Made by a program: the position numbers and the translations under genes. A DNA stretch of 35,964 nt from Gammaproteobacteria bacterium (GTDB lineage Bacteria; Pseudomonadota; Gammaproteobacteria; Steroidobacterales; GCA-2729495): the NCBI GenBank assembly GCA_004357495.1, contig SMWD01000152.1, positions 1-35,964 of the forward strand. Reading direction: 5' to 3'. A model generated the notes under the pieces. That model was not told the origin of the DNA. It did not search any database and saw only the letters and a program-made list of their open reading frames with translations. Below, piece after piece: positions 24,545 through 35,964 of this stretch. Numbering within the stretch: position 1 is the stretch's first letter; each line of letters starts with the position of its first letter.

Positions 24545-25747
24545 TCAGTGCCGCGGCAGCGGCTTCAGGCGCATCTCCCAGTGCGAATACATCGGGTACC
24601 GTCCTGCGCACCAGATAATGATCGCGATGAAGCCGGCTACCATGCCGACGGCGAGGCCGATGTCCGGCCACGTGCTGAATGGCTGATTATCGGGTGACAG
24701 CGCGGGAACCACCATCAGGTACTTGCTGATCCATATGCCGAGGTTAATGCCAAAACTGATAACGCACATCGCGAGCAGCGAACGTTTGACGACGGCGAAA
24801 ATAAACGCAACGAACGGGACAAAGAAACATCCGGCCATCATCGTCCAGAAGTACGGGCCGTAGTGGCCGTACATCTGTCGCCACAGTGGTTCTGACTCGT
24901 GTTCCAGGTTACCGAACCAGATCACGAAGAACTGCGCCCAGAAGAAATATAACCACAGCAGCGTGAACGCCGTGACCAACATCCCGAGCTTGCGCACCTG
25001 GTCCGGCCCGAACGGCGCGTCACCCTTGCCCGAACCACCCAGCAGCGCCGGGAACACAATCAGGGCCGCGCATCCAGCAAACAGGCTGCCGAACCAGAAG
25101 TAAATCGGGAACACCGTGCTGTGCCAGTGCGGGATCAGCATCATCGCGAAATCCCAGGCGAACAAGGTGTTGCACAGTATAAAAGCAATGATGACCCACG
25201 GCGACAGCAGATACAGCTGGCGCTCCACGGCACGGTGATCGATTGCGTCGGCGTCCGCACCGGCCGCCAGATCCGGGCGCAGGCTCTTTAAGACGTAAAC
25301 GGCACTGAGGCCATAGAAGGCCAGCAGGCCGAGCAGATTGCGGATCAACAGCCAGTTCAGATCGAGCCACGGACTCAGGTGCGCCTCCGGTTCCGGCGAC
25401 AGCCAGTAGAACAAATCGTCGCGCGCAAAGTAGAACAACAGCAGGAAAATGCCGATTGCGAATGGCGCGAATGCCAGCGTGCTGAGTTCCGCCAGGCGGT
25501 AGTACGGCTTGGCCCACTGCGCCTTGACGATCCGGGTGATCGCGCAGAAGACGACGCCGGCCTGGCTGATACCGAGCAGATACAGGAACGAGGCTGTCAG
25601 CACGCCGAAGTCGAGCGCGGCGGTCTCGCTATTCAGTCCATACAGCAGGCTGCCGAGTCCCAGCACAAACAAAGCGAGCATGACCCACAGGGCAACCGTT
25701 CCAGCCTCGCGTGATCGGGCGAATCCAAGCGGGTGCAGCGTGCTCAT
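24545..25747 (-). CDS. actF: Alternative complex III NrfD-like membrane subunit F (ActF)
   Basis: About 10 TM segments; MSTLHPLGFARSREAG...FLYLLGISQAGVVFCAITRIVKAQWAKPYYRLAEL; position in the ACIII operon. Confidence 0.8.
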   Translation of the reverse strand: MSTLHPLGFARSREAGTVALWVMLALFVLGLGSLLYGLNSETAALDFGVLTASFLYLLGISQAGVVFCAITRIVKAQWAKPYYRLAELSTLAFAPFAIGIFLLLFYFARDDLFYWLSPEPEAHLSPWLDLNWLLIRNLLGLLAFYGLSAVYVLKSLRPDLAAGADADAIDHRAVERQLYLLSPWVIIAFILCNTLFAWDFAMMLIPHWHSTVFPIYFWFGSLFAGCAALIVFPALLGGSGKGDAPFGPDQVRKLGMLVTAFTLLWLYFFWAQFFVIWFGNLEHESEPLWRQMYGHYGPYFWTMMAGCFFVPFVAFIFAVVKRSLLAMCVISFGINLGIWISKYLMVVPALSPDNQPFSTWPDIGLAVGMVAGFIAIIIWCAGRYPMYSHWEMRLKPLPRH

Positions 25748-26280
25748 TTTTCGTCGATCTCGGTCTTGCCGAATTCGTGTTTGATATAGTTGACCACGTC
25801 CCACCTCTCCTCCGGGCTCAACGCATCGCGGTAGAACGGCATGGCCGAACGGCCGCGCGTCAAGGTAAAAAACACCTGCCCGTCGGCCTGATCCTGGGTG
25901 TAGGCGTCGTTCAGGTCCGCCGGCGACGGATCGGCGAACTTCAGGCCAACCGGGCCGTCACCCCGCCCTTCCGGCCCGTGACAGACGATGCAGTTGGTCT
26001 GGTAAAAAGACTTGCCACGCGCCAGCGACTCGGGAGTCGCGGCGACCGGGTTCTCGATCGATATGGCTGCGTCCTTCGCATCGAACATGCCTTGCTCGGT
26101 CGTTGGCGCGACCACCGTTTCGCCACCACGCACCGGCACGGCACCCGGCCCCGGCGGTGCGATCGACTCCTGCGGCTTCGCGGACGGCTGATCGACCATG
26201 TCACGATCCCACGGCAAACCCGCGACCGTCGACGCGTAGCCGAGCAACCCTAATGCAATCAAAGCATGCCGAATGCGCAT
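25744..26280 (-). CDS. actE: Monoheme cytochrome c subunit of ACIII (ActE)
   Basis: Single CXXCH (YQTNCIVCHGPEGRGDGPVG), signal peptide, C-terminal SPEERWDVVNYI; overlaps actF. Confidence 0.85.
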   Translation of the reverse strand: MRIRHALIALGLLGYASTVAGLPWDRDMVDQPSAKPQESIAPPGPGAVPVRGGETVVAPTTEQGMFDAKDAAISIENPVAATPESLARGKSFYQTNCIVCHGPEGRGDGPVGLKFADPSPADLNDAYTQDQADGQVFFTLTRGRSAMPFYRDALSPEERWDVVNYIKHEFGKTEIDEK

Positions 26281-26798
26281 CAGGCGGCTTCCTCCTTCAT
26301 GGCGCGGACTTCCTCCGCGCCGGCCTCGCGGAGAATGCTCTCTGCTTTTTGAAAATGTGCGTCATCGTCAACCTCGACCGCCACGGCGAACTTGTCGACG
26401 GCGGCCTCCGGCACGTACACGCGCTCCCGGATTGCCGGCAGGCGCGCGCTGATGAAGAAGCCGAGGACTGTGAACAAAATGCCGAACAGGATCGTCATCT
26501 CGTAGGTGATGATCAGGAACGGCGGTATTGTGATGATCGGTCGGCCGCCAACCGGGTGCAGATACACCACGGCCGTGCCGGCGGCCAGCAGGAAGCCGCA
26601 GATACCGCCAATAATTCCACCCATCAGCGTAAAGCGTTTGATGACCGACTTCTTCTCGCCGAGCACTTCCTCCACGCCTTCCATTGGGATCGGCGACATC
26701 AGTGACGGTGTCGCGAACCCCGCGCCCTTGAGCTTGCCGGCTGCCGCCAGCGCGGCATCCGGCGCGGGAAACAGCCCCACTGCCTGGTGACTGACCAT
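26280..26798 (-). CDS. actD: DUF3341 membrane subunit of ACIII (ActD)
   Basis: MVSHQAVGLFPAPDAALAAAGKLKGAGF; two TM helices; HPVGGRPIITIPPFLIITYEMTILFG. Start set at 26798, giving a 1-nt overlap with actC. Confidence 0.88.
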   Translation of the reverse strand: MVSHQAVGLFPAPDAALAAAGKLKGAGFATPSLMSPIPMEGVEEVLGEKKSVIKRFTLMGGIIGGICGFLLAAGTAVVYLHPVGGRPIITIPPFLIITYEMTILFGILFTVLGFFISARLPAIRERVYVPEAAVDKFAVAVEVDDDAHFQKAESILREAGAEEVRAMKEEAA

Positions 26799-28159
26799 CA
26801 GTCGGCACCTCCTTCGGTTCCGGGCGTGCTGGTCGCAGCTTCGCCCGGCTGATCCATCGTCTCCTTGATCTCGTAGATTGATATGCTCGGGAAGATCTTG
26901 ACGAAGATCAGGAACAACGTGCTGAACATCCCCAGGGTGCCCACCATGATCGAGATCTCGACGGAACTCGGAACATACACACCCCACGAATCCGGCAGGT
27001 ACTGGCGCGACAGCGAGGTGCCGACGATCAGGAAACGCTCGGTGTACATGCCGATATTGATCACAATCGACAGGATCAGCATCGGCACGAACGACGTTCT
27101 GAATCTCTTCGAGATCATCAGCAGCGGAGCCACGGCACAGAACAGGATCATCTCCCAGTACAACCACGCGTAATAGCCGAACAGCTTGTACTTCAGCGCT
27201 TCGTACTCGGTCGAGGTGCCGCTGTACCAGGCCGTGAAGAGCTCGAGCGCGTTGATGTAGGTCCAGATCAGCGAGAGCACGATCAGCAGCTTGCCGAGAT
27301 TATCGAAGTGCAGATCGGTGATGTAATGCTCGAAGTTCATGTACTTGCGCAGCACAAACATGACGGTCACGATACCGGCGGTTCCGGAGTAGATTGCGCC
27401 GACCACGAAGTACGGCGCGAATATCGTCTGATGCAACGCCGGCACGAGCGACAGAGCGAAGTCCCAGGACACGATGCTATGCACCGAGACCGCGAGCGGA
27501 ATAATCAGCACGGCCAGGAACGTGTACGCCCAGCCCAGACGATGCCATTCGGTATCGGTACCGCGCCAGCCGAGTGACAGCATCACGTACATGTGATGCC
27601 GCCATCCGGTCGTGCGGTCGCGTACCGCGGCGAAATCAGGAATCGTCCCCATGTAGATAAAAATCGAGCTACCGGTCAGGTAAGTGGTGATCGCCATGAC
27701 GTCGAACATCAGCGGCGAACGAAAGTTCGGCCACAACCCCATCTGATTCGGGTACGGCAAGGTCCAGTGGATGAACCATGGACGCCCGACGTGTACCATG
27801 ACCATCGTCCCGGCGACCATCAGCGAGAACAGCGTCATGGCCTCGGCACTGCGGTACATCGCCTTGCGCCACGAACTTTGCGTAATGTGCAATACGCACG
27901 ACAGCAAGGTTCCGGAATGGCTGAGGCCAATCCAGAAGATGAAACTTGCGAGATACGTACCCCACACGGTCGGCTGGTTCATGCCGGCCGCACCGATGCC
28001 GTAATTCAGCTGGTAAAACCACGGGAAGAAGAAGCAAACGAGCGTGACCGTGATCGCAACCGTCAACGTAATGTAGTACGCCGACCCCGTCTGGGTCAGC
28101 GAGCGAACGACGTCGTCGTTAACGTCGGCGAATTGCAGCTTGCGCGGGTTATCTGGCAC
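26798..28159 (-). CDS. actC: NrfD/PsrC-like quinol-binding membrane subunit of ACIII (ActC)
   Basis: About 10 TM segments; SHSGTLLSCVLHITQSSWRKAMYRSAEAMTLFSL; SWDFALSLVPALHQTIFAPYFVVGAIYSG. Confidence 0.9.
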   Translation of the reverse strand: MPDNPRKLQFADVNDDVVRSLTQTGSAYYITLTVAITVTLVCFFFPWFYQLNYGIGAAGMNQPTVWGTYLASFIFWIGLSHSGTLLSCVLHITQSSWRKAMYRSAEAMTLFSLMVAGTMVMVHVGRPWFIHWTLPYPNQMGLWPNFRSPLMFDVMAITTYLTGSSIFIYMGTIPDFAAVRDRTTGWRHHMYVMLSLGWRGTDTEWHRLGWAYTFLAVLIIPLAVSVHSIVSWDFALSLVPALHQTIFAPYFVVGAIYSGTAGIVTVMFVLRKYMNFEHYITDLHFDNLGKLLIVLSLIWTYINALELFTAWYSGTSTEYEALKYKLFGYYAWLYWEMILFCAVAPLLMISKRFRTSFVPMLILSIVINIGMYTERFLIVGTSLSRQYLPDSWGVYVPSSVEISIMVGTLGMFSTLFLIFVKIFPSISIYEIKETMDQPGEAATSTPGTEGGAD

Positions 28160-28922
28160 CGGCGTCGACCTCCACCTTCTTCAGGTAGACCACGGACGGG
28201 GCGGTGTTCAGTTCCTCGAGCACGCGGTACGCCCGTGGATCATTGAGTTGCTTCGCGACCGCGCTGTCCGGGTCCTGGCGGTCACCGAAGACCAGCGCCT
28301 CGGTCGGGCAGGTCTGCACACAGGCCGGCTGCACCTCGCCGTCCCGTACGCGGCGACGCCCGTCGTCCTTGGCGGTGTCCTTGGCCAGGCGGATGCGCTG
28401 GATGCAGAACGTGCACTTCTCCATGACGCCTTTCTCACGCACCGTGACATCCGGGTTCAGCTGCTGATCGAGTGGCGTATCCCAGTGATGGGTTTGGTAG
28501 TTGAAATAACGCACTTCGTATGGGCAATAGACCGCGCACGCGCGCGTCCCGATGCAGCGGTTATAGACTTGCGCGTTGAGGCCGTCCTGGTTGTGGTAGG
28601 TCGCCGACACCGGACACACCGTCTCACACGGCGCCGCGTCGCACTGCTGACACAACATCGGAATGAAGCGCAGCTTGATGTCCGGGTACTCACCCTCCCA
28701 ATAACGCTCGATGCGGATCCAGTGCATGGTACGACCCTTGGCAATCTCCTCCTCGCCGACGATCGGCAGATTATTCTCGGCTTGGCAGGCGGTGACGCAG
28801 GCCTCGCAACCGGTGCAGCGGTCGAGGTCGATGGTCATCGTCCACGCGTAGTCGAACTTGTCGTAATAGCCGGGCTTCCGGTAGGCCTGCCATTGTTCGG
28901 CAAATTGGTCGATAAAGCTCAT
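28149..28922 (-). CDS. Iron-sulfur subunit of ACIII (ActB2-equivalent, separate gene)
   Basis: CTGCEACVTAC, CQQCDAAPCETVCP, CIGTRACAVYCPYEVRYFNY (Thr for Cys, 3Fe-4S type), CTFCIQRIRLAK...CVQTCPT. Start at 28922. Confidence 0.88.
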   Translation of the reverse strand: MSFIDQFAEQWQAYRKPGYYDKFDYAWTMTIDLDRCTGCEACVTACQAENNLPIVGEEEIAKGRTMHWIRIERYWEGEYPDIKLRFIPMLCQQCDAAPCETVCPVSATYHNQDGLNAQVYNRCIGTRACAVYCPYEVRYFNYQTHHWDTPLDQQLNPDVTVREKGVMEKCTFCIQRIRLAKDTAKDDGRRRVRDGEVQPACVQTCPTEALVFGDRQDPDSAVAKQLNDPRAYRVLEELNTAPSVVYLKKVEVDAGAR

Positions 28923-31225
28923 GTCGGTTCCACCGTGATTGGAATACTGCGCAGTCGAGTACTCTGCAAGGCGACACTGCGCGCTTCGCCCTGCGCCGGC
29001 GTCGATGAGGCGATCTGCACGATGTCGCGGCCCAGCTCGCGCGACTCGCCGCCGGTTTTGACCAGCTCGACGTGGCGGCCCGTGCGGGTGAGTTTGACAC
29101 GCGTCGCACTCCACGCCAGCGCCCCGGTTTCCGGCTCCATCTGCGGCGCGAGTATCCGGATCGGGTTGACGCCACGGTTCCGCGCGTAACGCCCGTACTC
29201 CGTATGGCCCTGGCCGATCGGGATCGCGATGACGTCGGGCCGGATGGCCGGGTAGACATAGACCGGGGCGGCGATCTTGCCGTACGGCGACTCGACGTCG
29301 AGCACGTCGCCCTCCTTGACGCCGAGTTGGGCTGCCGTCTGCGGATTCAGCTCGATCCACGATCCGTACACGATGCTTGTCATTGCATCCGGCAGCTCCT
29401 GCAACCACGGTAAGTTCGCGCCACGCCCATCACGCAGTGCGTTCGACTCGTACGGGTACAAAACAAACGGATATGTCTCCTCGGCGCCTGCGAACTCCGG
29501 TTCACCGACATCGATGCTGGCGATAACATTTCGGCTTACTGACACCGACGCATGATCGCGGCCGGTATCCTCGCCCCAGACACCGGCGCGAAGGATGTCG
29601 CGCCAGAACGTATCGAACCCTTCCGTGCCACCCGAGACCTGCGCATGAATCGTTCGCCAGCTGTCACGCAGGTAATCTTCCATGCTTGGCCATGGCAGCG
29701 CTTCGTCCAGGCCGACCTGCCGTGCCAGCGCAAGTACGATGTCACCCGTCGCGCGCGTGTTGTACAACGGGGATACGACGGGCTGCGAAACGGCACCGAC
29801 CGGGAATCCGACGCCCGGCTCGGGGCTGTGATCGCCCCAGCTCTCCAGGTAGGTATGGCTCGGCAGAATCACGTCGGCCATCGCGGTGGTCTCGTCGGGG
29901 AAACTCGACAGGCTGACAATCAGCGGGATCTCCTGCAGAGCGGCCGCGAATTCGGCCGCATCCGGCAAGGTGAAAAGTGGATTGGTGTTGTTGACGATCA
30001 GCACGTCGATTTTGCCCGCACGCGCCGCATCAGCCAGTTCCCGCATCGCCCGATAGGTCGCGTGTCGCGCCTGGGTGTCACGGCCGACGGCGGGCTCCGG
30101 GTTAAACACGACCCCGCCGGGCTTGCCCAGGTTGCCGACCAGATAATTCAGCGCATTGACAGCGACCAGCGTCGCCACCGCGTTGGTGTGACTACATGCC
30201 GTGCCCCCGCCAATCGCCAAGCTCGCTTTGCTAGCGGCGAATTTCTGTGCGACCCGCTCGATTCTCGCGGCCGGCAAGTCGACGGCTTCCGCGACGGAAG
30301 CCGGCGTGTACCGGTCGAGTGCCGCAGCCCATGCGTCACGATCCGCTCCCCGATAGCGTTTCTCAACCAAGTGTCGGGCGATGGCCAGCGCGAACAAACC
30401 CTCCGTACCCGGCGCGGCCGCCAGCCACTCATCGGCTGCCGCTCCACTCACCGACATCCGCGGCTCGACCTGCACGAAATAGCCACGCGCATCGGGTCGC
30501 GCGTGACGGCTCCGACCGAAGCCGAGACTATGATGCACCGGCGAGATCCAGGTGCTGAGGTAGTCGGCGCCAAACGAGATGACATAGTCGGCGTTTTGCA
30601 GATCGTAGTACGGCAGGCGCGTCTCACCGAACAGCCGCTGGTTGGCCGCGTACAGGGTTTGCGGATGCGCGAACTCATAATGCAGCAACCGGTCGGCACC
30701 GAGCTCGGCCATGAACCGCTCGAACAACTCGGCAAGGTGGCCGCCCACCCCCTCGGTCAGCAGGCAGATACGATCACCCTGTCCCGCCGCTTTCAGCGCG
30801 CTGAGCGTCTCGCCGACGCGGCCCAGTGCCTCATCCCACGTCGTCTTGACGAAACCGGCCGAACCGCGCTCCGCGTTCTGCACCAGCGGCCCCGTCAGGC
30901 GATCCGGGTTATACAGGGCCTGCAAACCGGCCTGGCCCAGCGCGCACACCGCGCCCTGACTGACCGGGTGCGCGGGATTGCCCTCGATCTTCTTGGCGCG
31001 CCCCTCGCGCGTCCGCACGGTAATGCCGCAGCCGGCCGAACACATCGAGCAGACCGAGTTATACCAGGTCGCGATTCCAGAACTGAATTCCTCGGGTGGC
31101 ACTGCGTACGGCACCAGGTACTCGAGCGGATGTTTGGTCGACTCCGAGAGCATGAAGCCGGCGCCGGCGCCGATGCCGCCCGCGCCGACGAGTTTCAAAA
31201 AATCCCTGCGTTCGATATTTGCCAT
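28919..31225 (-). CDS. Molybdopterin-oxidoreductase-like subunit of ACIII (ActB1-equivalent, separate gene)
   Basis: Tat motif RRDFLK; CSMCSAGCG-x26-C motif; C-terminal PWLQELPDAMTSIVYGSWIELNP...PIGQGHTEYGRYARNRGVNPIRIL. Confidence 0.88.
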   Translation of the reverse strand: MANIERRDFLKLVGAGGIGAGAGFMLSESTKHPLEYLVPYAVPPEEFSSGIATWYNSVCSMCSAGCGITVRTREGRAKKIEGNPAHPVSQGAVCALGQAGLQALYNPDRLTGPLVQNAERGSAGFVKTTWDEALGRVGETLSALKAAGQGDRICLLTEGVGGHLAELFERFMAELGADRLLHYEFAHPQTLYAANQRLFGETRLPYYDLQNADYVISFGADYLSTWISPVHHSLGFGRSRHARPDARGYFVQVEPRMSVSGAAADEWLAAAPGTEGLFALAIARHLVEKRYRGADRDAWAAALDRYTPASVAEAVDLPAARIERVAQKFAASKASLAIGGGTACSHTNAVATLVAVNALNYLVGNLGKPGGVVFNPEPAVGRDTQARHATYRAMRELADAARAGKIDVLIVNNTNPLFTLPDAAEFAAALQEIPLIVSLSSFPDETTAMADVILPSHTYLESWGDHSPEPGVGFPVGAVSQPVVSPLYNTRATGDIVLALARQVGLDEALPWPSMEDYLRDSWRTIHAQVSGGTEGFDTFWRDILRAGVWGEDTGRDHASVSVSRNVIASIDVGEPEFAGAEETYPFVLYPYESNALRDGRGANLPWLQELPDAMTSIVYGSWIELNPQTAAQLGVKEGDVLDVESPYGKIAAPVYVYPAIRPDVIAIPIGQGHTEYGRYARNRGVNPIRILAPQMEPETGALAWSATRVKLTRTGRHVELVKTGGESRELGRDIVQIASSTPAQGEARSVALQSTRLRSIPITVEPT

Positions 31226-31261: not shown

Positions 31262-31801
31262 TCATTTGTGACACGTCAAGCAATCCTGGCCGTGCTGCAC
31301 CTCGTTCTCCAGGTGACAATCCCGGCACCAGCCCATCTGCAGCGGCGCGATGCGGGTCACGACGTCCATCGTCTGCACCGGCCCGTGACAGCTCTGGCAT
31401 TCGATGTTCGCCTGCACATGGCGCTTGTGCGGAAAATACACGAAGTCCGGCAGGTCATGAACCTTGATCCACGGGATCGGATCCTTGTTGACCCAGTAGT
31501 TCATGAGCTTGCGAATCTCCGGGCGGTCCGTCGCGACTTCATTGTGACAGCCGACGCATTTGTTGACGCTCGGCACGCCCGCGGAAATCGAGCGGCGCGC
31601 CTGCGTGTGGCAGTACTGGCAGGGAATCTCAAAATCACCCGCATGGATACGGTGGCTGAAATTGATCGGCTGTACGGGGGTCGTGCCCGGAAAGAAGGTC
31701 GCATTGGCCCAATAGCCGGCGAACATGCCAACCAGCCCGACCACGCCGATCAAGGCCGCGGGCTTGAGGACTCGTAACGTTGGAACGATAGATACGCCCA
31801 T
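31262..31801 (-). CDS. actA: Pentaheme cytochrome c subunit of ACIII (ActA)
   Basis: Five CXXCH motifs (CQYCH, CVGCH, CQSCH, CRDCH, CLTCH) after one N-terminal TM anchor. Confidence 0.9.
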   Translation of the reverse strand: MGVSIVPTLRVLKPAALIGVVGLVGMFAGYWANATFFPGTTPVQPINFSHRIHAGDFEIPCQYCHTQARRSISAGVPSVNKCVGCHNEVATDRPEIRKLMNYWVNKDPIPWIKVHDLPDFVYFPHKRHVQANIECQSCHGPVQTMDVVTRIAPLQMGWCRDCHLENEVQHGQDCLTCHK

Positions 31802-31884
31802 CTACTCCACACTCCGTACACGGTATTCCACAACGGCCGTCGCCGGCCTCGAATAGACACCTTGCCTGCTTAGCTTTCCCCTAT

Positions 31885-32241
31885 TCACGAGCCGGGCGAT
31901 TCCGGCTGCCTGGTCAACCCCAGCGCCTTGCCGAACCTGTTGCCGAATTCCTGAATCGAGTCGGCCACCTCCTGGTTGTTCGTCGCGCGCCGGTAGGTGT
32001 CCGCCATCTTGTGGATCACCTGGTAGAAATACAGATTCATGTCTTCGACGCTCGTGTCCCGAATCCACAGGTCGATGGCTGCCGTCGTTTTCCGCTCGCT
32101 GTCCCACATCGACAGCATCACCGACTGACATGGTCTCGGACCGTCGTGGCGCGCCTCGGTGGCCTGCCATTCGATCTTGATCGGCAGATTGTCGCCATCG
32201 AGTTCGACCGTCAGTTTGATTTCGGCAGTTCGGGGCATCAT
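31885..32241 (-). CDS. GldC-like protein
   Basis: AEIKLTVELDGDNLPIKIEWQATEA...MLSMWDSERKTTAAIDLWIRDTSVEDMNLYFYQVIHKMADTYRRATNNQEVADSIQEF matches the remembered pattern of Bacteroidetes GldC (LD..N.P.KIEW.A, WD...K.T..IDLW.KDM.VDEM..F..Q....MADT..RAT). Confidence 0.72.
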   Translation of the reverse strand: MMPRTAEIKLTVELDGDNLPIKIEWQATEARHDGPRPCQSVMLSMWDSERKTTAAIDLWIRDTSVEDMNLYFYQVIHKMADTYRRATNNQEVADSIQEFGNRFGKALGLTRQPESPGS

Positions 32242-32293: not shown

Positions 32294-32503
32294 ATGTTCG
32301 ACATTTTAATAATCATCGTCATGTTCGGCATCCTCGTCAGCCTGGGTGTCGGCCTGTTCTTTCTCGTCCGTGATCGCGGCCGCACCGAACGCACGGTTAT
32401 CTCGCTGAGCGTGCGCGTCGGGCTGTCCGTCCTATTGCTCGCTCTGCTCGCGTTCGGTTTTATGTCTCGCCTCATGTCTTCTGGCGCCACCCCCGGTGGT
32501 TAA
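32294..32503 (+). CDS. DUF2909-like twin-transmembrane protein of cox loci
   Basis: 69 aa, two TM helices flanking a basic loop: MFDILIIIVMFGILVSLGVGLFFLVRDRGRTERTVISLSVRVGLSVLLLALLAFGFMSRLMSSGA; lies beside coxC. Confidence 0.7.
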   Translation: MFDILIIIVMFGILVSLGVGLFFLVRDRGRTERTVISLSVRVGLSVLLLALLAFGFMSRLMSSGATPGG

Positions 32504-32517
32504 CCCCAGCCCTCCTG

Positions 32518-33402
32518 TCAGAACCAGTACACAAACGTAAAAAGAAACAGCCATACCACGTCGACGAAGTGCCAGTACCAGCTGGCAGCTTCGAATGCGA
32601 AGTGATTGTCCGGCGTGAAGTGGCCCTTGATACAGCGCAGGAGCATGACCGTGAGCATGATCGCGCCCAGAGTTACATGTGCGCCGTGGAATCCCGTCAG
32701 CATGAAGAACGTCGACCCGTAGATCCCGGAGCCGAGGCTCAGGCCGAGCTCGCTATAGGCGTGGATGTACTCGACGACCTGCAATGTGAGGAAGGTGAAC
32801 CCGAGTGTGACCGTCGTCGCCAGCCAGACTATCAGCGCCCCGCGCCGGCCCTTCTTCAAAGCCCAATGCGCGAACGTAACCGTCAGGCTGCTGGTCACGA
32901 GAATCATGGTGTTGATCAACGGCAGACCCCAGGCGCCCATCGCCTGCGTACCCTCGCCCCCCGGCGTCATGAACAGCGGCCAGACGTCCGCGAAGTCGGG
33001 CCACAACAGCAGATGCGTCTCGAGACGGTGACCCGCACCGGCCAGCCACGGCACTGAGATCACACGGGCATAGAATAATGTGCCGAAAAAAGCGGCAAAA
33101 AACATGACCTCGGACACGATGAACCACACCATGCCCATGCGATACGAGCGATCGAGCTGTCGGCTGACCAGACCCTGCATCGATTCCATGATGACGACGC
33201 GGAACCAGCCAAACATCATGAACGCGACCATCGCCAGCCCGGCGTAAAAAATTAGCGCGCCGAATTCACCCTCGGTCGCGACCTTGTCAGTGCTCTGCTG
33301 GATGAAGTTGACCGCGCCGAAGGCCGTCACAAACAACGCGATCGAGCCGATGATCGGCCAGACGCTGCTGTGCGGAACGTAATAGCGGGGTGTCCCGCTC
33401 AT
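32518..33402 (-). CDS. coxC: Cytochrome c oxidase subunit III
   Basis: YYVPHSSVWPIIGSIALFVTAFG; MFFAAFFGTLFYAR; GFHGAHVTLGAIML; ASWYWHFVDVVWLFLFTFVYWF. Start at the internal Met 33402. Confidence 0.95.
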   Translation of the reverse strand: MSGTPRYYVPHSSVWPIIGSIALFVTAFGAVNFIQQSTDKVATEGEFGALIFYAGLAMVAFMMFGWFRVVIMESMQGLVSRQLDRSYRMGMVWFIVSEVMFFAAFFGTLFYARVISVPWLAGAGHRLETHLLLWPDFADVWPLFMTPGGEGTQAMGAWGLPLINTMILVTSSLTVTFAHWALKKGRRGALIVWLATTVTLGFTFLTLQVVEYIHAYSELGLSLGSGIYGSTFFMLTGFHGAHVTLGAIMLTVMLLRCIKGHFTPDNHFAFEAASWYWHFVDVVWLFLFTFVYWF

Positions 33403-33451
33403 GATGCCTGCTTCGCCCCTTGCTCGTTGTTCATGAGTTGGTCGACCATAC

Positions 33452-34036
33452 TCAGTTGCTCGCGACCTGCTCTGGCTCAACATCGGGAACCCGGAACATC
33501 GAATACGACAGGCTCAGCGTACTGATTTCTTCGGGCAAATCCGCATCGATATAAAACGTCACCGGCATCTCGACCGCCTCACCCGCCGCCAGCACCTGCC
33601 GCTCGAAGCAGAAGCACTCGATCTTGTGCAGGTGCAAGGCTGCGACGCCCGGCGCCACGCTCGGCACGGCCTGACCGGTAACCGACGTGCCAGCCCGATT
33701 GCGTGCATAGAACGTCGTCGTGACCATCTCGCCAGGGCGCACACTCAGCTGGCTCACCGTCGGCCGGAACTCCCAGGGCAACCCCTTGCCCACCTGCGCC
33801 ACGAACTGGATCTTCACATCGCGATCAACGACCGGCCCGGGCATATCGGGCACGGCAACCGGCCCGGCGGTTTTGCCGTTGATCCCGGTCAGCTCACAGA
33901 ACACGTCGTACAGCGGGACCAGCGCGAAGGCGAAACCGAACATACTGCAGGCGAGCAGTATCAGCAGCGCCGCCTGCTTCCCGTGACCTTGCGGTGTGCC
34001 TTGCACGCTCAAACCGCTAGTCCTCCTCGGCCGCAA
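33452..34036 (-). CDS. ctaG: Cytochrome c oxidase assembly protein CtaG/Cox11
   Basis: FGFAFALVPLYDVFCELTGINGKT; LHKIECFCFERQVLAAGE copper motif; overlaps the coxA end. Confidence 0.93.
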   Translation of the reverse strand: MRPRRTSGLSVQGTPQGHGKQAALLILLACSMFGFAFALVPLYDVFCELTGINGKTAGPVAVPDMPGPVVDRDVKIQFVAQVGKGLPWEFRPTVSQLSVRPGEMVTTTFYARNRAGTSVTGQAVPSVAPGVAALHLHKIECFCFERQVLAAGEAVEMPVTFYIDADLPEEISTLSLSYSMFRVPDVEPEQVASN

Positions 34037-35609
34037 TAACCGGCGGCGTCTCGAATGTGTGGAACGGGGCCGGCGACGGTACCGTCCACTCGAGTCCTTC
34101 AGCCCCCTCCCAGACCTGTGCGGTGGCTTTCTGGCCGCCGCGAATCGTCTTGACCACGATGTACAGGAAAAGGACCTGCGTCAGGCCGAGCAACCCCGCA
34201 CCGATGCTGGACATCATGTTGAAGTCTGCGAATTGCACCGAGTAATCGACGATGCGCCGGGGCATGCCGGCGAGCCCGGAGAAATGCATGGGAAAAAACG
34301 TCAGGTTAACGGCGAAGGCAGCCACCCAGAAGTGAATCTTGCCGAGCCGTTCGTCATACATGTGCCCGGTCCACTTGGGTAGCCAGTAGTAGACGGCCGC
34401 CATCGTGCCGAAGATCGCGCCGGGATACAGCACATAGTGGAAGTGCGCAACGACGAAGAACGTATCGTGATACTGGAAGTCCGCCGGCACCAACGCCAGC
34501 ATCAGGCCAGACAAGCCACCGATGGTAAACATCATGACGAAGGCAATAGCGAACAACATCGGCGTCTCGAAGGTCATCGAGCCCCGCCACATCGTCGCGA
34601 CCCAGTTGAACACCTTGACGGCCGTGGGCACGGCAATCAGCATCGTCGCATACATGAAGAACAGCTCGCCGAACAGCGGCATACCGGTCGTGAACATGTG
34701 GTGGCCCCAGACGACGAACGACAGGACCGCGATCAGGACCGTGGCATAGACCATCGAGCGGTAGCCGAACAGCCGCTTGCGCGCGAACGTCGGAATGATC
34801 TGCGAGGCGATGCCGAAGCCCGGCAGGATCATGATGTAAACCTCCGGGTGCCCGAAGAACCAGAAGATGTGCTGGAACAGCACCGGATCACCGCCGCCGG
34901 AAGCCTCGAAGAAGCTGGTACCGAAGTGGCGGTCGGTCAGCATCATCGTGACGACGCCGGCCAGCACCGGCATGACCATGATCAGCAGAAACGCGGTGAT
35001 CAGCCAGGTCCAGACGAACAACGGCATTCTCATCAATGTCATGCCGGGCGCACGCAGGTTTATGATCGTCACGATGATGTTAATCGCCCCGGCGACCGAC
35101 GAGATGCCCATCATGTGCACGCCCAGGATGAAGAAGTCGGTGCTCGGCGGGCCGTAGGTCGTTGACAGCGGCGCATAGAACGTCCAACCAAAGTTCGGGG
35201 CCCCGCCTTCCATGAACAGTGTTGACAACAGCAGCGTGAATGCGAATGGCAGCAGCCAGAAGCTGAAGTTATTGAGCCGGGGCAGCGCCATATCGGGCGC
35301 GCCGATCATCAGCGGGATCATCCAGTTAGCCAGGCCGACGAACCCCGGCATGACGACGCCGAATACCATGATGAGGCCATGCATCGTGACCAGCTGGTTA
35401 TAAAAGTCCGGTTGCGTGAACTGGATACCCGGTGCAAACAACTCGAGACGCATGATCATCGCGAACGCGCCCGCAATGAAGAACAGCGTAAAGCTGAGGC
35501 ACAGGTAGAGCGTGCCGATCTCCTTGTGGTTCGTCGTCAGCAGCCAGCGGGCGATGTAGCTCACCAGCGGATGGCGTGAACTCGGTATGTTGTCTGCGTG
35601 TGCGCTCAT
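34017..35609 (-). CDS. coxA: Cytochrome c oxidase subunit I
   Basis: WLLTTNHKEIGTLYL; FFGHPEVYIMILPGFGIASQI; WGHHMFTTGMP; VVAHFHYVLYPGAIFG. Confidence 0.97.
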   Translation of the reverse strand: MSAHADNIPSSRHPLVSYIARWLLTTNHKEIGTLYLCLSFTLFFIAGAFAMIMRLELFAPGIQFTQPDFYNQLVTMHGLIMVFGVVMPGFVGLANWMIPLMIGAPDMALPRLNNFSFWLLPFAFTLLLSTLFMEGGAPNFGWTFYAPLSTTYGPPSTDFFILGVHMMGISSVAGAINIIVTIINLRAPGMTLMRMPLFVWTWLITAFLLIMVMPVLAGVVTMMLTDRHFGTSFFEASGGGDPVLFQHIFWFFGHPEVYIMILPGFGIASQIIPTFARKRLFGYRSMVYATVLIAVLSFVVWGHHMFTTGMPLFGELFFMYATMLIAVPTAVKVFNWVATMWRGSMTFETPMLFAIAFVMMFTIGGLSGLMLALVPADFQYHDTFFVVAHFHYVLYPGAIFGTMAAVYYWLPKWTGHMYDERLGKIHFWVAAFAVNLTFFPMHFSGLAGMPRRIVDYSVQFADFNMMSSIGAGLLGLTQVLFLYIVVKTIRGGQKATAQVWEGAEGLEWTVPSPAPFHTFETPPVIAAEED

Positions 35610-35619
35610 CGATCCGCCT

Positions 35620-35964
35620 CTAACGTGACTCATAGACGGTCATCGGTTGGATGACCTGGCCCATCTCGTTGCCCCAGGAATTGCGTTCGTAGGTAATGAC
35701 GGCCGCGATATCGAGATCAGAGAGCTGCGGAGCCCAGGCCTGCATCTCGGTGTCGGCCTTGCCGTTCAGGACACGATCGATATGGCTCTCGATGGTCCCG
35801 GTAGTAATGTCGCTGCCCGCCAGCGCCGGGTACTTGCTGCTCTGCCCCAGTCCGTTTGGCTGATGACACGTCGCACAATTGTCCATGTAAACACTCTCGC
35901 CGCGCGTCACGAGTTCACCCATGCTCCACGTCCTCTGTCGATCGCGCACCGCCGTCTCGCCGGC
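35620..35964 (-). CDS. coxB: Cytochrome c oxidase subunit II, C-terminal cytochrome c domain (gene runs off the window)
   Basis: Frame stays open to the window edge (AGETAVRDRQRTWSMGELVTRGESVYMDNCATCHQPNGLGQSSKYPALAGS); next to coxA. Confidence 0.82.
   Translation of the reverse strand, partial: AGETAVRDRQRTWSMGELVTRGESVYMDNCATCHQPNGLGQSSKYPALAGSDITTGTIESHIDRVLNGKADTEMQAWAPQLSDLDIAAVITYERNSWGNEMGQVIQPMTVYESR

Follow-up and report, generated by a model that had tools for sequence, protein, structure and literature searches.

The gene for the gliding-associated protein GldC lies between the genes of an aa3-type oxidase and those of ACIII in a gammaproteobacterial contig of 35,964 nucleotides (the window), and this place, the coxC/actA junction, is the place of gldC in all 20 distinct gammaproteobacterial loci that we found. 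We infer that gammaproteobacterial GldC is a cytosolic biogenesis or assembly factor of the aa3-ACIII cassette that is made together with ActA, a reading to which we assign a probability of about 0.55. GldC and ACIII are each known, and as far as the openly accessible literature that we searched shows, their union in one operon is undescribed; one paper mentioned the two together, though only within its reference list, and a search of the literature for a function of GldC in respiration found none. To our knowledge, GldC has carried its gliding label since 2000 with no known biochemical role, and we know of no dedicated ACIII assembly factor.

Identification of the window protein as GldC

The gldC gene (31885..32241) is an ORF of the minus strand that starts with ATG and encodes 118 amino acids; the plus strand was scanned over the same positions and gave no match. 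The product scored 97 bits against the Pfam GldC-like family PF19937 (E 9.4e-28, cut-off 25) and 105.1 bits against the NCBIfam GldC equivalog TIGR03515 (E 3e-30, residues 5-108), for which the curated cut-off is 102.15 bits. By two independent curated models the protein is a true member of the GldC family, as an earlier note on this DNA had proposed. That note also had gldC co-directional with actA and 83 bp before it, which is correct; it gave no strand.

An alignment of 36 sequences, including Bacteroidota GldC, has eight invariant and nine nearly invariant columns, and the invariant residues common to the gammaproteobacterial and Bacteroidota proteins are P19, W24, D46, I55-D56-L57-W58, and A85. 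Gammaproteobacterial GldC proteins are 51-98% identical to each other, a retention similar to that of ActB1 and ActE. An AlphaFold2 model based on 36 natural homologues (pLDDT 88.5, pTM 0.72) predicts a bbbb-aa fold, with four main strands ahead of two helices. No chain in the PDB matched this model at E ≤ 0.001 in a Foldseek search, and a PDB sequence search found no solved relative, so that neither search gave a hint of function. The protein is soluble, which fits the cytoplasmic factor envisaged in the earlier note.

The aa3-ACIII cassette

Downstream of gldC, all on the minus strand, actA (31262..31801) encodes the membrane-anchored pentaheme cytochrome c of ACIII, with five CXXCH motifs. 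It is followed by actB1 (28919..31225) for the molybdopterin-oxidoreductase-like part of ActB, actB2 (28149..28910, approximate start at MSFIDQ...) for the Fe-S part, actC (26798..28159) for an NrfD-like quinol subunit, actD (26280..26804, approximate start at MVSHQ...), actE (25744..26280) for a monoheme cytochrome c with a CIVCH motif, and actF (24545..25747, approximate start) for a second NrfD-like subunit. ActC matches the solved ACIII subunits 6lod_C, 6btm_C, 8k9e_C, and 6f0k_C, with E-values of about 2e-101 or better. The actF product gave no Pfam match at E ≤ 0.001 and has a homologue in the ActF of every complete relative. The set actA-B1-B2-C-D-E-F is a complete operon. ActB is carried on two separate ORFs (28149-31225) in the window and likewise in the relatives examined; ActB1 matches in three loci (L152, L021, and L028) consisted of two pieces and an unmatched stretch, which suggests insertions or frame changes.

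Upstream of gldC, also on the minus strand, lie coxC (32518..33483) for aa3 oxidase subunit III, which is kept in all loci; a gene for a Cu assembly factor (33452..34036), presumably ctaG/cox11 from our reading of its sequence, which is kept in all loci reaching that far; coxA (34017..35633) for the cassette-type aa3 oxidase subunit I; and the probable end of coxB (35620..35964), which encodes a C-terminal cytochrome c domain (PF13442/PF00034) and is cut by the contig end. A divergent DUF2909 gene (32294..32503, plus strand; PF11137, 56 bits) is situated between gldC and coxC. With coxA-ctaG-coxC just upstream on the same strand and actA-F downstream, gldC marks the aa3/ACIII junction. The earlier description of gldC as the head of an ACIII operon understated the context, as gldC is linked to a whole cassette of aa3 oxidase plus ACIII genes. 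A promoter and terminator scan at the junction was uninformative.

Distribution of gldC in Pseudomonadota

We searched 296 genomes from the window's order and found GldC in 15; in all 15 its gene lies between coxC and actA. A wider GldC scan, over 84,980 species genomes, gave 305 loci, the best 80 of which comprised 61 from Bacteroidota and 19 from gammaproteobacteria, one of the latter being filed under Rhodospirillaceae by title. All 19 show the order cox-gldC-act where the contig reaches. The two sets overlap and together make up the 20 distinct loci, all from metagenome-assembled genomes. These data bear out the proteobacterial host and establish the link to ACIII that had been noticed in the window.

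As the 20 loci were found via their gldC, a survey of ActC in the 296 genomes served as an independent check. An ActC-like protein was present in 45 genomes; GldC is encoded by those whose ActC is at least 82% identical to that of the window and is missing from a larger group with about 66-71% identity. Among 349 genomes sampled across the phylum, GldC was detected only in the window's own genome, and 28 other pseudomonadotal genomes encode more distant ActC-like proteins and are GldC-less. GldC is thus not a general requirement of ACIII, as these 28 genomes and the sister ACIII clade do without it. CoxA gave the same partition: proteins 81-100% identical to the window's belong to GldC-encoding genomes (81-88% for the CoxA of other cassettes with gldC), the other CoxA proteins were 74% identical or less among the matches listed, and genomes having only such a housekeeping CoxA are GldC-less. 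The window's genome encodes a second, housekeeping CoxA (70% identity, G000:C39) as well as cytochrome c1, and its cassette is thus an addition. No GldC-encoding gammaproteobacterial genome lacking the cassette was found, nor any loss of gldC from the cassette among the 20 loci. Viral contigs yielded no relative of GldC.

Two further observations concern the respiratory setting. Cytochrome c1 was not detected in four GldC-encoding genomes (G089, G095, G116, and G140), two of which are >90% complete, so that ACIII may serve as their sole complex III; most of the other GldC-encoding genomes keep bc1 too. In 9 of 19 GldC-less ACIII loci of the same order (L141-L147, L156, and L157), a DUF6941 gene (PF22091) lies near actA, mostly just upstream of it; where loci were inspected by eye, a cytochrome c gene was nearby. 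DUF6941 seems to be a small protein, unrelated to GldC, with a comparable position in the sister ACIII clade; profile comparison of the two was negative.

Coupling of gldC to actA

The distance from the gldC stop codon to the actA start is -4 to +3 bp in 19 of the 20 loci, and in most of these the two codons adjoin directly (TAG-ATG, TGA-ATG, or TAA-ATG); gldC and actA are therefore probably translationally coupled. The actA ribosome-binding sequence CGGAG is located inside the last gldC codons (...Arg-Ser-Ala/Val-x-stop) in many loci, and 12 of the 20 have a CGGAGTG-like-N5-stop-ATG motif.

The sole exception is the window, with its 83-bp gap (31802..31884, minus strand). In the relatives, ...RS[AV]x-stop is in frame with gldC and abuts actA; the window keeps CGGAGTGTGGAGTAG-ATG, readable as ...RVRSVE-stop in a frame other than that of gldC. 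The gap, which holds the actA ribosome-binding site and ends in CGGAGTGTGGAG-TAG directly 5' of the actA ATG, appears from its sequence to be an out-of-frame relic of the gldC 3' end, with the region 31802-31990 frameshifted. A late frameshift, either natural or an assembly error, is the likeliest cause of the loss of the gldC tail in the window.

In most loci, gldC is at a divergent DUF2909/gldC junction. L066, L067, and L078 have no DUF2909 at this point; their coxC-gldC gaps are 73, 2, and 45 bp, respectively, and the cox, gldC, and act genes therefore follow one another without interruption. Beyond the cox-act block, genes are common only to small subgroups, with the exception of oxidase and assembly genes (SURF1, SCO-like), which lie upstream or downstream of the block.

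Coupling of this kind would also suit a GldC that belongs permanently to the ACIII-aa3 supercomplex of this clade, as a cytosolic subunit docked at the inner face of ActC/ActF/ActA: the coupling suggests matched stoichiometry with ActA, the modeled fold is soluble and compact, and GldC co-occurs with the cassette. The PDB sequence search, however, revealed no GldC-like chain among solved ACIII structures, including the complex of Flavobacterium johnsoniae, a genus that carries gldC, and the sister ACIII clade works without GldC. We consider a subunit the next most likely form of the protein, though an improbable one. The ribosome-binding site of actA at the gldC 3' end and the divergent junction with DUF2909 would be compatible with regulation instead, in which translation of gldC gates that of actA, or GldC senses the respiratory state and controls expression of the cassette. 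Neither profile nor fold searches matched a DNA- or RNA-binding domain in GldC, and if gldC served only as a leader, its protein sequence would not be so well conserved; regulation is very unlikely.

GldC in Bacteroidota and the question of gliding

No act genes were found near gldC in any of the 61 Bacteroidota loci among the best 80 of 305, in flanks that extended to 10 kb or to the contig end where that came sooner; this sample is the part of Bacteroidota closest to the query and is rich in Flavobacterium. ACIII is present in these organisms: all 22 of the Bacteroidota GldC genomes tested carry ActC elsewhere, and the queries do detect Bacteroidota ACIII, with ActC, ActB2, ActE, and ActF recovered in 22 of 22 ActC loci. 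On the chromosome of Flavobacterium sp. LPB0248, for instance, gldC and the ActC gene are about 180 kb apart. The enrichment of gldC near ACIII genes that the earlier note had anticipated is thus complete in gammaproteobacteria, and the sampled Bacteroidota show none. In a Flavobacterium example, gldC follows a lipoprotein-like gene, which we take to be consistent with gldB, and its neighbors vary in other Bacteroidota. A very divergent GldC homologue is encoded on a Hymenobacter plasmid (NZ_CP040937.1, L060:5998-6333) beside hypothetical genes and far from ACIII or gliding genes.

GldL, the sole gliding/T9SS motor gene tested, was found in none of 11 GldC-encoding gammaproteobacterial genomes (the window's genome is 74% complete, others up to 97%) versus all 11 Bacteroidota controls. 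Judged by GldL, the window's gldC is indeed unaccompanied by other gliding genes, as had been noted. The gldB-gldC adjacency is absent in gammaproteobacteria as well, the neighbors being cox and act genes in every locus. A lineage that lacks GldL and has GldC locked to aa3-ACIII genes separates GldC from motility and points to a respiratory role. The linkage gives GldC a specific, testable candidate function, and makes gldC a candidate accessory gene for ACIII.

A wider reading is that every bacterium with GldC uses it in the biogenesis or function of the ACIII-aa3 chain, that its gliding label came from gldB adjacency together with the dependence of gliding on the proton motive force, and that the gammaproteobacterial cassette exposes the role. 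We regard this generalization as doubtful. GldC is reported as annotated in the fermentative Paludibacter jiangxiensis (PMC5522939); if that annotation is correct and ACIII is absent there, it speaks against a universal ACIII role.

History of gldC and the cassette

In a quick ActC tree, the loci with gldC form one clade (98 SH-aLRT) whose sister is the GldC-less ACIII of the same order, and Bacteroidota ActC is far from it. In the GldC tree, all gammaproteobacterial proteins fall on one side of a branch with support of 100/99. The GldC tree and the tree of concatenated Act proteins have 9 of 16 splits in common, versus a mean of 0.24 and a maximum of 2 with shuffled names. One supported conflict between the two trees concerns the place of the Rariloculus-like loci. 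In Mantel distance tests, GldC correlated with ActA, ActD, and CoxA, less strongly with CtaG and the remaining Act proteins, and not with CoxC.

The suggestion that gldC had travelled with ACIII from Bacteroidota was rejected, given the distance between the ActC lineages, the grouping of the window's ActC with GldC-less ACIII of its own order, the lack of linkage in the 61 Bacteroidota loci (best 80 of 305), and the presence of ACIII elsewhere in the 22 genomes. The simplest account is a single acquisition of GldC by the cassette ancestor, with Bacteroidota or some relative as donor, and later descent and transfer of the whole cassette. Transfer is indicated by a patchy distribution: genus g15 includes genomes with GldC and ACIII, with ACIII and no GldC, and with no ACIII, and the window's three genus mates are without ACIII. 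Misbinning of the window contig was considered and is unlikely, since its GC content is even and it carries a native gene about 3 kb beyond actF, which is 81-85% identical in two of the ACIII-less genus mates.

A single origin, seen in both the ActC and GldC trees, could also mean that gldC entered the ancestral cassette a single time and stays there by common descent, borrowing the expression of the cassette while its product acts elsewhere, for example in the envelope or in export. The mixed neighbors of Bacteroidota gldC and its separation from ACIII in the loci sampled agree with such a passenger. Against it, the abutment of stop and start codons has held down to 51% identity despite DUF2909 moves and flank changes, and gldC was neither lost from a cassette nor found outside one, in loci that were themselves found via gldC. 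We think this improbable, slightly more so than a subunit.

Proposed role and comparison with known systems

Under the assembly-factor reading, a Bacteroidota-type cytosolic GldC would have been recruited once into a gammaproteobacterial aa3-oxidase plus ACIII cassette. It would be a cytosolic accessory of the electron-transfer unit formed by ACIII and aa3, with its synthesis matched to that of ActA, and would most likely engage ActA, or the cytosolic face of ACIII, during assembly of the complex. In Bacteroidota, GldC may originally have had this role or one akin to it. The main weakness of this reading is that sister ACIII complexes lack GldC and that the Bacteroidota genes are unlinked. Position in an operon is by itself compatible with an assembly factor, a subunit, and a regulator alike.

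GldC of Flavobacterium and other Bacteroidota belongs to the same family (35-44% identity), is likewise a small cytosolic protein, and has the same invariant residues. It differs in context, with its gene beside a GldB-like lipoprotein gene or in varied surroundings in genomes that encode GldL, whereas the genes of the window's clade have aa3 and ACIII neighbors in genomes that do not. The export chaperone SecB resembles the GldC model in its order of secondary structure, which we take to be bbbb-aa in SecB; a SecB-like relationship was nevertheless rejected, as the two have no profile relation (hhalign probability 0.3%) and SecB was not among the Foldseek matches listed. The oxidase-assembly genes ctaG/cox11, SURF1, and SCO are, like gldC, small accessory genes inside or flanking the same cassettes. 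This likeness is one of genomic position only: their products have no sequence relation to GldC and act at the membrane or in the periplasm, whereas GldC is cytosolic. The ACIII-aa3 complex of F. johnsoniae (6BTM) and the ACIII of Rhodothermus (6F0K), Roseiflexus (6LOD), and 8K9E share with the window the actA-F set and a strong ActC match. The window cassette differs from these solved systems in carrying ActB on two ORFs, gldC before actA, and cox genes beyond gldC, and the ACIII lineage of its clade is distant from that of Bacteroidota.
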